Assembly: GCF_900142465.1 (NCBI RefSeq)
Contig: NZ_FRAX01000006.1
Span: 62,001 to 126,000 of the forward strand
DNA length: 64,000 bases
Direction of reading: 5' to 3'
Origin: Fibrobacter sp. UWH6
Lineage (GTDB): Bacteria; Fibrobacterota; Fibrobacteria; Fibrobacterales; Fibrobacteraceae
Part shown: in pieces, positions 4,413 to 33,022 of the stretch
Layout: each line of letters begins with the position of its first letter
Position numbering within the stretch: position 1 is the first letter of the stretch
Notes under the pieces: model-generated
Databases searched by the model: none
Told to the model about the DNA's origin: nothing
Seen by the model: only the letters and a program-made list of their open reading frames with translations
Program-made: the position numbers and the translations under genes

Positions 4413-4496
4413 TGCGGTCGGACAGACTTGAACTGTCATGGGATCGCTCCCACTAGCACCTCAAGCTAGCGTGTCTACCAATTCCACCACGACCGC
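4413..4496 (-). tRNA. tRNA-Leu(GAG), copy 1
   Basis: 84-nt type II tRNA: acceptor GCGGTCG/CGACCGC with discriminator A, long variable arm, anticodon loop TTGAGGT giving anticodon GAG (reads CUU/CUC). CCA is not encoded. It is identical over its length to copies at 4664 and 7634, and has its own promoter (4520-4550) and terminator. Copies 1 and 2 share flanks, so they arose by local tandem duplication. Confidence 0.95.
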
Positions 4497-4663: not shown

Positions 4664-4747
4664 TGCGGTCGGACAGACTTGAACTGTCATGGGATCGCTC
4701 CCACTAGCACCTCAAGCTAGCGTGTCTACCAATTCCACCACGACCGC
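4664..4747 (-). tRNA. tRNA-Leu(GAG), copy 2
   Basis: 84 nt, identical to copy 1, anticodon GAG, no encoded CCA, its own promoter at 4770-4800 and terminator at 4625-4660. It lies 251 bases from copy 1 in the same orientation, with shared flanking sequence on both sides. Confidence 0.95.
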
Positions 4748-7633: not shown

Positions 7634-7717
7634 TGCGGTCGGACAGACTTGAACTGTCATGGGATCGCTCCCACTAGCACCTCAAGCTAGCGTGTCTACC
7701 AATTCCACCACGACCGC
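7634..7717 (-). tRNA. tRNA-Leu(GAG), copy 3, downstream of secG
   Basis: 84 nt, identical to copies 1 and 2, anticodon GAG, no encoded CCA. Its flanks differ from those of copies 1 and 2. No TAnnTTTG box is seen in the 66 bases back to secG, so it is probably co-transcribed with tpiA-secG. A secG-tRNA-Leu(GAG) order is also known from Escherichia coli (secG-leuU), so this is likely the ancestral locus. Confidence 0.95.
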
Positions 7718-30246: not shown

Positions 30247-30711
30247 TTACAGGATGGGGTCCAAGTTCTGCAAAGCCTTGGCGGCGGCTCCCTGGGCGAA
30301 TTTCTGTTCCAAATCCGTGAACTTCTCGTTCCAGAATTTTGTTTTTTCGCAGGAGAGGCGCGCTCCCCGTTCATAAATCCACAGGTAACAATCCTCGTCG
30401 ACGACTTCGTAATCGGATCCGCCGTTGAACACATTGGCTACACCGTAAACTTCGTGGTCCTTGCTCAGGATGACCTTGCAACCCAGAAGCATGGAGAGAT
30501 TTTGACAAGCCTGTTCCAGGGCGGCATTGTCCAGGTCCTCGCTCTTCATCGAGAATCGGGAAACGTTCCGCTCGTCGATTTTCAAACCCAGGGATTCGAA
30601 GTCCTGTTCGACCCAACTCATCTTGTTGATAAACTTGCGAAGCGAAGAAATGTCCTGAACCTGGTCCGGTTCCGGAAAAATTCGCCCTCTGACAGTATAC
30701 TCGTGTTCCAT
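30247..30711 (-). CDS. hypothetical cytoplasmic protein
   Basis: 154 residues with no signal peptide or membrane segment; acidic alpha/beta composition (MEHEYTVRGRIFPEPDQVQ, then helices and a central VNVFNGGSDYEVVDEDCYLWIYERG-like strand pair seen in pieces). No family recognised. TACTTTTC ends five bases before ATG 30711 and no ribosome site is visible. It precedes topB by 33 bases on the same strand, so a link to topB expression is possible, although topB seems to have its own promoter. Confidence 0.6.
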   Translation of the reverse strand: MEHEYTVRGRIFPEPDQVQDISSLRKFINKMSWVEQDFESLGLKIDERNVSRFSMKSEDLDNAALEQACQNLSMLLGCKVILSKDHEVYGVANVFNGGSDYEVVDEDCYLWIYERGARLSCEKTKFWNEKFTDLEQKFAQGAAAKALQNLDPIL

Positions 30712-31033
30712 AAAAAGAAAAGTAGAAAAAACGCAGCGCGATTATAAAACTAGTATCTCCCCGCTTTGTCGCCTTTTACGAAGAAATCCACCTACGTTTC
30801 CAAAGCCCGAATACGAGCAGAATGGTCTGCGATATCCGCCTGCTGTTTTATCCATGGGGGCGAGGATCGCATTTCCCGTAGTGCGAAATAAATTCGCGGG
30901 CGATTGTCGGGCGATATACAAAAAAGTCGGTGTTTCCGACGGAAAGAATATATGAAATTCAAGAGTCATGTCTGACATCTATGTTTAAGGAAGATATGAC
31001 CGTTAACAGTGCGTTCTTGTCGGTGAGCATACC
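30712..31033. other. non-coding stretch upstream of leuA region
   Basis: About 320 bases without a supportable gene. Short open frames on both strands lack ribosome sites. ATGTCTGACATCTATG near 30968 resembles ATGTCTGGTATCTATG near 31054, so the region may contain decayed copies of a sorting-domain coding sequence. Confidence 0.4.
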
Positions 31034-31123
31034 ATGGAACTGGAAAAGCCGGCCATGTCTGGTATCTATGTCCTTCGTGTCTCGGCAGGAAATTCAAGTC
31101 GGAACATGCTGATTAAATTCTAG
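31034..31123 (+). pseudogene. remnant of a T9SS-like C-terminal sorting domain
   Basis: A 29-codon open stretch reads ...AMSGIYVLRVSAGNSSRNML and ends IKF-stop. This is the typical end of a type A sorting domain (GxYxxR/K...K), comparable to GVYLLKQ...VNTVK of the GH43 protein. Upstream the frame is broken by TAA at 31004. No start or ribosome site is present. I infer a decayed secreted-protein gene. Confidence 0.4.
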
Positions 31124-31156: not shown

Positions 31157-31189
31157 AAGGAGTTTCCCTTGCCGTGGGGGAAACTTCTT
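31157..31189. repeat. 12-bp inverted repeat within the leuA leader promoter
   Basis: AAGGAGTTTCCC pairs with GGGAAACTTCTT (one G-U). The tail is not a T-tract. The hairpin overlaps the promoter of the leader peptide and could be an old terminator or an operator. Confidence 0.5.
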
Positions 31190-31199
31190 TGTATATTCA
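31169..31199 (+). promoter_or_regulatory. promoter P1 of the leu leader, TTG-N20-TATATTCA
   Basis: TTG (31169-31171), 20-base spacer, TATATTCA (31192-31199); the leader ATG follows after five bases, so the transcript would start at or next to the ATG. Confidence 0.55.
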
Positions 31200-31204
31200 T
31201 CAGC

Positions 31205-31273
31205 ATGAAAATGATCCTAGACCTACAACTTCTACTTTGCACCGCTCTGTGTAATACCGAGGCGAGGTTTTAG
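31205..31273 (+). CDS. leuL: leucine-rich leader peptide of leuA
   Basis: 22 codons, MKMILDLQLLLCTALCNTEARF-stop when read in two parts (MKMILDLQLLL and CTALCNTEARF). Six of the 15 codons from 5 onward are Leu (CTA, CTA, CTT, CTA, CTT, CTG), clustered as in leu attenuator leaders of proteobacteria. It is followed 44 bases later by a terminator and then by 2-isopropylmalate synthase. The expected action is that ribosomes stall on Leu codons when charged tRNA-Leu is scarce, favouring read-through. No Shine-Dalgarno is present; the ATG lies five bases after the promoter box. Rarely noted outside proteobacteria and actinobacteria. Confidence 0.72.
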   Translation: MKMILDLQLLLCTALCNTEARF

Positions 31274-31317
31274 GGTATTGAATCAATAAGACTTTTTTTA
31301 TTGAAATTGAACACTAA

Positions 31318-31356
31318 AAAGGCTTGCTTCCTCGGGAAAGCGGGCCTTTGTTTTTT
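31318..31356 (+). terminator. transcription attenuator before leuA
   Basis: Stem AAAGGC/GCCTTT extended by pairing of TTGCTT with AAGCGG, followed by TTTGTTTTTT. It lies between leader peptide and leuA, so it would stop leader transcripts when leucine is plentiful. I could not define an antiterminator by eye with certainty. Confidence 0.75.
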
Positions 31357-31385
31357 GGTCAGAGGGATAAAAAAAGCTATCTTTG
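31355..31385 (+). promoter_or_regulatory. promoter P2 of leuA, TTG-N20-TATCTTTG
   Basis: TTG (31355-31357) lies in the T-tract of the attenuator; 20-base spacer; TATCTTTG (31378-31385). It would give leuA mRNA that escapes attenuation. Confidence 0.6.
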
Positions 31386-31450
31386 AGATTGAAAATTAAA
31401 TGACTTTGCGTTCCCGGTGAAAATCGAAGGAAGCGGCAAGGAGATGAAAA

Positions 31451-33022
31451 ATGAAGTGCATGATGGATTGTGCCGATCAGGCAAGAAAACCGTTTTTTTA
31501 CGACGTCACTCTGCGTGACGGTAACCAGGCTCTGCCCAAGCCCTGGAATAACGCCCAGAAGAAGGACGTTTACCTCCAGTTGTTGAAGCTGGGTGTGCAG
31601 GGGGCCGAAGTGGGTTTCCCGGCTTCTAGCGAAATGGATTTTGAATCTTGTAAGGAACTGGCCCAGCTCACCGCAAAGATGGCTGAAGAAGGTGATGAAG
31701 TCGCCCAGAAGATCGTGGTGGCTGGTCTTGCCCGTTGCGTCCCCAGCGACATTCAGCGCTGCTGGGAAGCGGTCCAGTATGCTCCCAATCCTCGTATCCA
31801 CACCTTCTTGGCAACTAGCCCCCTCTCCATGGAACATGTGCTGCACATGACTCCGGAACAGGTGAAGGCCAAGGCCGTGGAATGCGTGAAGTTGGCAAAG
31901 TCTCTGGTGGGTGACCGCGGTACCGTGGAATTCAGCTGCGAACATTTCGGTGACTGCCTGGAAAACATGGACTTTGTCATTGAAGTTTTGAAGGCCGTGG
32001 TGGAAGCGGGGGCAACTACCTTGAACTTGCCCAACACCGTGGAACGTTATCGCCCCATGCTGTACATCTCCCAGATCAAGCAGGTGTACGATGCTCTGCC
32101 CAAGAACGTGACTATTTCTGTTCACTGCCATAACGACCTGGGCATGGCAACTGCCGCTACCCTGGAAAGTTTCTTCGTGGGTGCAACCCAGATGGAAGTG
32201 GCCTTGAACGGTCTGGGTGAACGTTGCGGCAATACCAACTTCTACGAAGTGGCTGTGGGCCTGCACAACTCCGGTGTAGACACTGGCCTGCATCTGGAAA
32301 GAATTTACGAAACCGCCATCCTGATTTCTCAGTGGTCCGGTATCAACATCTACAATCGTGCTCCGTTGATCGGTGCCGAAGCTATCGTCCATCGTAGCGG
32401 TATCCACCAGGATGGCGCCAGCAAGACCAAGGACATGAAGAAGGGTGCATACCGCCCCATCGACTACTCCATCATCGGCCGTAACCAGAACGATTCCCTC
32501 AGCTTCACCAGCCAGAGTGGTCGTACCGCCGTGTACGAAATCATCACCAAGTTCGGTTACAAGATGAGTCTGGCCGAAGCCGCCGAACTGCAGCCCATCT
32601 TGAAGGCTTGCAGCGAAAAGGAAGGCGAGCTGAGCGCCGAACGGGTTCTGGATGTTTTCCGCGAACAGCGCGTTAACGTGAACGGCCGTTTGGTGTTCAA
32701 CAACATCGAAGTTGTTCCCGATGAAAACCGTTTCGTGTTCCACTTCAAGAAGGACAAGGAGCCCATAATCAAGTCCATCACTGCCGAAGGTCCCATTGAA
32801 GCTGGCCTTATGCTCATGCGTGAAATCGGCATGCCGGTGGAACTGGTGAAGTATCGCCAGGTGGTGGTTCCTGAAAAGGATTCCATGTGGGCTGGTCGCG
32901 GTCTCAGCCGTATTGTGCTGAAGGCCAATGGCAAGGAAGTGGAAGGCCGCGGTGTTTCTAGCGATACTCTGAAGGCTAACATGCGCGCCCTGTTCGGCGG
33001 TGTGAACCTGCTGTACAGGTAG
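31451..33022 (+). CDS. leuA: 2-isopropylmalate synthase
   Basis: Condenses acetyl-CoA with 2-ketoisovalerate, the first step of leucine synthesis. 523 residues: a DRE-TIM barrel with DVTLRDGNQALPKPW (catalytic Arg-Asp; the LRDGNQAL wording is that of the longer, yeast/actinobacterial LeuA group), SVHCHNDLGMATA (metal-binding HxH), NGLGERCGN, and a C-terminal allosteric domain (about 385-520; NGRLVFNNIEVVPDENRF) where leucine feedback would act. AAGGAG lies seven bases before ATG 31451. The leucine leader and attenuator upstream support LeuA over citramalate or homocitrate synthase. No leuBCD neighbours. Confidence 0.94.
   Translation: MKCMMDCADQARKPFFYDVTLRDGNQALPKPWNNAQKKDVYLQLLKLGVQGAEVGFPASSEMDFESCKELAQLTAKMAEEGDEVAQKIVVAGLARCVPSDIQRCWEAVQYAPNPRIHTFLATSPLSMEHVLHMTPEQVKAKAVECVKLAKSLVGDRGTVEFSCEHFGDCLENMDFVIEVLKAVVEAGATTLNLPNTVERYRPMLYISQIKQVYDALPKNVTISVHCHNDLGMATAATLESFFVGATQMEVALNGLGERCGNTNFYEVAVGLHNSGVDTGLHLERIYETAILISQWSGINIYNRAPLIGAEAIVHRSGIHQDGASKTKDMKKGAYRPIDYSIIGRNQNDSLSFTSQSGRTAVYEIITKFGYKMSLAEAAELQPILKACSEKEGELSAERVLDVFREQRVNVNGRLVFNNIEVVPDENRFVFHFKKDKEPIIKSITAEGPIEAGLMLMREIGMPVELVKYRQVVVPEKDSMWAGRGLSRIVLKANGKEVEGRGVSSDTLKANMRALFGGVNLLYR

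Follow-up and report, generated by a model that had tools for sequence, protein, structure and literature searches.

Cysteine-responsive leaderless short ORFs of mycobacteria were reportedly described by Canestrari et al. in 2020. Leaderless leader peptides occur in Streptomyces lividans at leuA, leuS and trpE, the leuA leader being without a typical Rho-independent terminator (PMC8079986); a LEU-element pseudoknot at actinobacterial leuA involves the leuA Shine-Dalgarno (SD) sequence (PMC1262725), and leaderless leader peptides of mycobacterial cysteine operons are cited in PMC13236596. The locus considered here lies in a window of 64,000 nucleotides, the whole stretch of Fibrobacter sp. UWH6 DNA that was analysed (contig NZ_FRAX01000006.1, positions 62,001 to 126,000 of the forward strand). 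We put at about 0.88 the probability that the element preceding its leuA gene attenuates transcription in response to leucine, by a ribosome-mediated mechanism and with a leaderless leader peptide. Such a mechanism is known in other bacteria; new would be its occurrence in Fibrobacterota, a phylum for which a search of the literature on Fibrobacter attenuation and leader peptides, most subscription journals lying outside it, yielded no description. The reading rests on the anatomy of the region, its conservation, the covariation of an antiterminator helix (2:3) and a near-invariant spacing between promoter and leader AUG.

On the plus strand, the region opens with a candidate promoter, P1 (31169-31197), made up of TTGCCG at 31169-31174, a 17-nt spacer and TATATT at 31192-31197, and followed at 31205-31273 by the conserved in-frame leader ORF MKMILDLQLLLCTALCNTEARF, with 22 codons, six of them for Leu, and the stop codon TAG. 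The layout in which a first-pass annotation had recognised leucine attenuation, namely this frame, a terminator and then leuA, is present and conserved in relatives; loss of the Leu-rich frame or of the terminator in close relatives, which the annotation had named as evidence against its own proposal, was checked for, and both are retained. The leader ATG lies 7 nt downstream of TATATT, rather than the five bases given there, and transcription is accordingly expected to begin on the A of that codon, at 31205 ± 2. The distance from the promoter TTG to the leader ATG is 35-37 nt in 57 of the 59 Fibrobacter leuA upstream regions, and exactly 36 in 50, while none of these 57 carries an SD-like sequence before the leader. 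Because the spacing is fixed and the SD absent, the leaderless start that had been suspected appears to be conserved, and a predicted 5' end at the AUG would account for both features. The two regions outside the spacing count (G035 and G042) both retain the leader, G042 with no clear promoter found upstream of it.

The alternative that survives best, although it is unlikely, holds that attenuation is real and the leader not leaderless, its translation taking place on a longer transcript or by a route other than leaderless initiation. The 5' end of the leader transcript is itself a prediction, and related phyla are known to initiate on leadered mRNAs independently of an SD (for Bacteroidetes, PMC3155529), but a leadered start sits poorly with the promoter-like TTG...TANNNT that is fixed at 35-37 nt from the ATG in the 57 regions and recurs upstream of the leader ATG in other families of the class, or with the genes downstream of a -10-type motif, TTTTCTATCTTTG, which often have their ATG 4-7 nt past it. 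A TTGCC...TATATT-type promoter also precedes ilvB. Around P1 itself, a 15-pair inverted repeat at 31157-31189 overlaps the -35 box in this genome; we dropped this terminator-like hairpin as a candidate operator or upstream terminator because its sequence is not kept in the -35 region of relatives (alignment A1). Further upstream of the attenuator, a direct repeat, CATGTCTG(AC/GT)ATCTATGT, occurs at 30967-30984 and 31054-31071, and a divergently oriented ORF starts at 30711, on the far side of the intergenic region from leuA.

We searched for LeuA in 101 genomes and retrieved the upstream regions. Each of the 59 Fibrobacter regions obtained upstream of leuA encodes a Leu-rich leader that follows the pattern M(K/R)KxL(N/D)LxLLLxIAxxARF or a variant close to it, and the gaps within these leaders are multiples of three. 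The control Leu codons of the window leader (31217-31249, plus strand) are CTA 31217, CTA 31223, CTT 31229, CTA 31232, CTT 31235 and CTG 31247. Of the 233 Leu codons in 42 distinct leaders, 194 are CTA (95) or CTT (99); CTA provides 22 of the 431 Leu codons (about 5%) in eight window genes, and its use for three of the six Leu codons of the window leader has P = 0.002. The leaders of G036 and G032 are rearranged, Leu-rich nonetheless, and their 2:3 pairing is intact. One genome (G001) has two leuA loci (L117 and L132), whose attenuators belong to different subtypes; mixed strains in the assembly are a possible explanation.

Between the leader ORF and leuA, an intrinsic terminator (31318-31356, plus strand), consisting of the 3:4 hairpin at 31318-31349 and a U-tract reaching 31356, folds with z -3.4 against shuffles and is present across alignment A1, which comprises 47 sequences. 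The 5' arm of this terminator contains segment 3 (CTTGCTTC, 31323-31330, plus strand), which is complementary to GAGGCGAG in the last leader codons; there, segment 2 (GAGGCGAGGTT, 31259-31269, plus strand, codons Glu-Ala-Arg-Phe) would form the 5' strand of an antiterminator of which segment 3 would be the 3' strand. A check for alternative pairings had been suggested in the first-pass annotation, and it brought out this pairing, which the annotation itself did not contain. In A1, the variants GAAGCG, GGAGCG and GAGGCG at the leader end are complementary to CGCTTC, CGCTCC and TGCTTC in the terminator 5' arm, and the six core 2:3 pairs are intact in 47/47 sequences. Two-sided changes affect 27 cells of the helix, a figure reached by none of 500 shuffles, and the complementarity is lost when the partner is slid by 1-3 columns. 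When the Leu codons are masked, mimicking a stalled ribosome, the antiterminator folds in all 47 sequences, at -15 to -29 kcal/mol; in the window its z is -3.3 against shuffles. Segment 1 (31220-31232, plus strand), which lies in the Leu codons and is the partner of segment 2 in a 1:2 anti-antiterminator, has 97% of its cells paired in the 47 sequences. Of all the elements, this 1:2 hairpin is the one least firmly established: its own fold in the window (z -1.3) is not significant alone, and no covariation beyond that of shuffles was found in the 47 sequences. In one clade, the leader has an insertion and AGGTT lies past the stop codon, and its retention there, outside the ORF, suggests that AGGTT plays a role in the RNA and not in the protein.

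All the conserved elements, namely the Leu codons, segment 2 in the final codons of the ORF, the covarying antiterminator and the terminator, are accounted for by classical ribosome-mediated attenuation, and stalling of the leader ribosome would very probably decide between a stop and a continuation of transcription. In the course of events that we infer, running from the transcription start through leader translation and ribosome stalling, with leucine as the signal and P2 active, P1 would start the RNA at or beside the leader AUG and a ribosome would initiate on this 5'-terminal AUG. With ample Leu-tRNA, the ribosome would reach the UAG and cover segment 2, leaving 3:4 to pair and to stop transcription before leuA. 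With scarce Leu-tRNA, it would stall on the CUA/CUU run and break the 1:2 hairpin, and the GAGGCGAG thus freed would pair with the terminator 5' arm, so that no terminator would form and leuA would be transcribed. In untranslated RNA, 1:2 would fold and termination would follow, while P2, located between the terminator and leuA, would probably supply a basal, unattenuated transcript.

The -10 region of P2, CTATCTTTG (31377-31385, plus strand), has the hexamer TATCTT at 31378-31383 and lies in the -10-like element GCTATCTTTG at 31376-31385; its core, CTATYTTTG, is conserved in 47 of 47 A1 sequences with hardly any variation. The pattern TTYTATYTTTR has 82 genomic sites, compared with 49 for the reversed pattern, and all 20 sampled sites of TTCTATYTTTG precede an ORF on the same strand, with an ATG 4-7 nt later in about half of them. 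Since the core is conserved and the motif widespread before same-strand ORFs, P2 is probably a genuine promoter, of a type common in Fibrobacter. The second promoter proposed in the first-pass annotation is thereby upheld as to its -10, which is conserved and of the genome-wide TTTTCTATCTTTG type; the idea that it uses the terminator T-tract as its upstream box is unsupported, because the -35-like TTGGTC at the end of the T-tract (31355-31360, plus strand, 17 nt from TATCTT) is peculiar to this genome, no conservation of it being found in A1 and its spacing being suitable here only. Across the genome, TTTTCTATCTTTG recurs as a promoter -10 motif, with no obvious -35 accompanying it. Genes starting 4-7 nt past it look leaderless and point to widespread leaderless mRNAs in Fibrobacter; when 37 genes of the window were roughly scanned, seven had a leaderless-type signature and no SD. 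Together, the promoter motif and the leaderless-start signature are useful for annotating rumen Fibrobacter genomes.

The conserved -10 of P2, being of a widespread type, is also what lends some substance to the improbable reading that the terminator is constitutive, that P2 supplies most of the leuA mRNA and that the P1 RNA or its peptide acts in trans like the Sinorhizobium peTrpL, the trp attenuator RNA and peptide of that bacterium being known to act in trans (PMC7298713). A constitutive terminator, however, would have no use for covarying antiterminator complementarity, and the preservation of Leu codon identity and of the CTA bias likewise speaks against this reading.

The leuA gene (31451-33022, plus strand) encodes a 2-isopropylmalate synthase, its product matching the NCBIfam model for LeuA2 (NF042434) above cut-off with 524.5 bits, and its ATG at 31451 is preceded by the SD AAGGAG at 31438-31443. 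Part of this SD is covered by a CTTTGC/GCAAGG hairpin (31404-31441, plus strand), and a similar stem, of CTTTGC or CTTGC with GCAAGG and the like, forms in nearly all of the 47 folds of A1 sequences. The hairpin may add translational control, which we regard as a lead only. There is a comparably slim chance that leucine acts mainly on leuA translation through this hairpin, with the leader as an accessory, in the manner of the actinobacterial LEU element, whose Leu codons pair with the leuA SD (PMC1262725). Common as the stem is in the folds, its energy in the window is no better than that of shuffles (z -0.7), no pairing between Leu codons and the leuA SD was seen, the SD stem using the local CTTTGC instead, and a clear intrinsic terminator with a covarying antiterminator exists. 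Also in the window, on the minus strand, are three equally scoring tRNA-Leu (GAG) genes (4413-4496, 4664-4747 and 7634-7717); that they share the window with a leucine attenuator is likely a chance association.

Other families of the class Fibrobacteria also have Leu-rich leaders whose ATG is closely preceded by a promoter-like box: f2 (G062), f3 (G063, G065 and G067-G074) and f4 (G064). Their segments differ in sequence, and complementarity is kept where examined, as GGCGGG/CCCGCC in G062 and GGAGAGTG/CACTCTCC in G071. Outside the class, an ORF filter with ATG or GTG starts detected nothing comparable in the regions retrieved upstream of leuA for other classes of the phylum, and no convincing leader was found with LeuA relatives from other phyla. 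That a Leu-rich ORF stands beside an unrelated terminator by chance, as the modest Leu enrichment of the window leader alone (P = 0.011) might allow, has next to no likelihood, being refuted not by single-sequence statistics but by conservation across relatives in the genus and the class, together with the fixed promoter spacing and the covariation.

Two other amino-acid genes of the same genome are preceded by leaders of this kind: trpE by MKMIYALTVAFDGRWWRGL (L226, G000:C5, leader ATG near 205008) and trpB by MKMINVLCENFDGRWWRGL (L227/L214, G000:C5, leader ATG near 233998). In either case the leader follows immediately on a TTGCC promoter and contains tandem Trp codons, and in both GAGTCTGG has alternative partners, GGACTC at the leader end or CCAGACTC in the terminator, with 2:3 energies of -24.1 kcal/mol for trpE and -16.8 kcal/mol for trpB. 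Related trpE leaders are found in G001, G003, G004, G005 and G061. On sequence grounds, trpE and trpB have leaderless Trp-Trp attenuators that follow the same 2:3 logic as leuA. Attenuation at ilvB and hisG was considered and rejected, the 5' regions of these genes being short and without a leader.

These observations would extend ribosome-mediated attenuation to Fibrobacterota, with a comparative record, from the genus and other families, that shows the competing pairing by covariation. That leuA, trpE and trpB share one design suggests an association of leaderless initiation with attenuation in bacteria as distant as Actinobacteria, Sinorhizobium and Fibrobacteria, and makes it testable whether leaderless leaders help to couple the first ribosome to RNA polymerase. 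We tentatively suggest, at somewhat less than even odds, that leaderless initiation is a standing part of the amino-acid attenuators of the class Fibrobacteria (leuA, trpE and trpB): a ribosome would load at the 5'-terminal AUG as this codon emerges from RNA polymerase, so that each polymerase is tied to a pioneer ribosome; basal expression would come from a separate SD-led gene start together with a Fibrobacter-specific bypass promoter, the whole having arisen apart from the actinobacterial leaderless leaders.

Compared with known systems, the Fibrobacter element resembles the enterobacterial leu and trp attenuators (Leu_leader and Trp_leader of Rfam) in its leader rich in the regulated amino acid, in the exclusive 2:3 and 3:4 pairings and in the order of control codons followed by segment 2, but differs from them in having no SD, with the AUG at the predicted RNA 5' end, and in carrying the antiterminator strand inside the leader ORF, in its last four codons. 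No Rfam leader model, Leu_leader included, scored above its gathering score, Thr_leader, with its gathering score of 55, reaching 19.8 bits. With the mycobacterial cysteine ORFs, compared here by citation, it would share a leaderless ORF with a run of regulatory codons serving as attenuator; these differ, judging by the title of the cited work, in responding to cysteine and in belonging to another operon class. As in the trpL of Sinorhizobium meliloti (rnTrpL/peTrpL, PMC7298713), the attenuator RNA would start at the leader ATG, as predicted for Fibrobacter, whereas that system is concerned with Trp, is alphaproteobacterial and has known roles in trans (PMC7298713). In Streptomyces lividans and other Actinobacteria, a leaderless Leu-rich leader precedes leuA (LeuL1, MRFGLLLLSCRGEGL) and a leaderless Trp-rich one precedes trpE (PMC8079986, PMC1262725), an arrangement that the predicted Fibrobacter leaders share. 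The features of the actinobacterial LEU element, a Leu codon run pairing with the leuA SD and no obvious terminator, were not seen at the Fibrobacter locus, which, unlike the actinobacterial leuA leaders, has a terminator and a covarying antiterminator; the likeness noted is one of layout.
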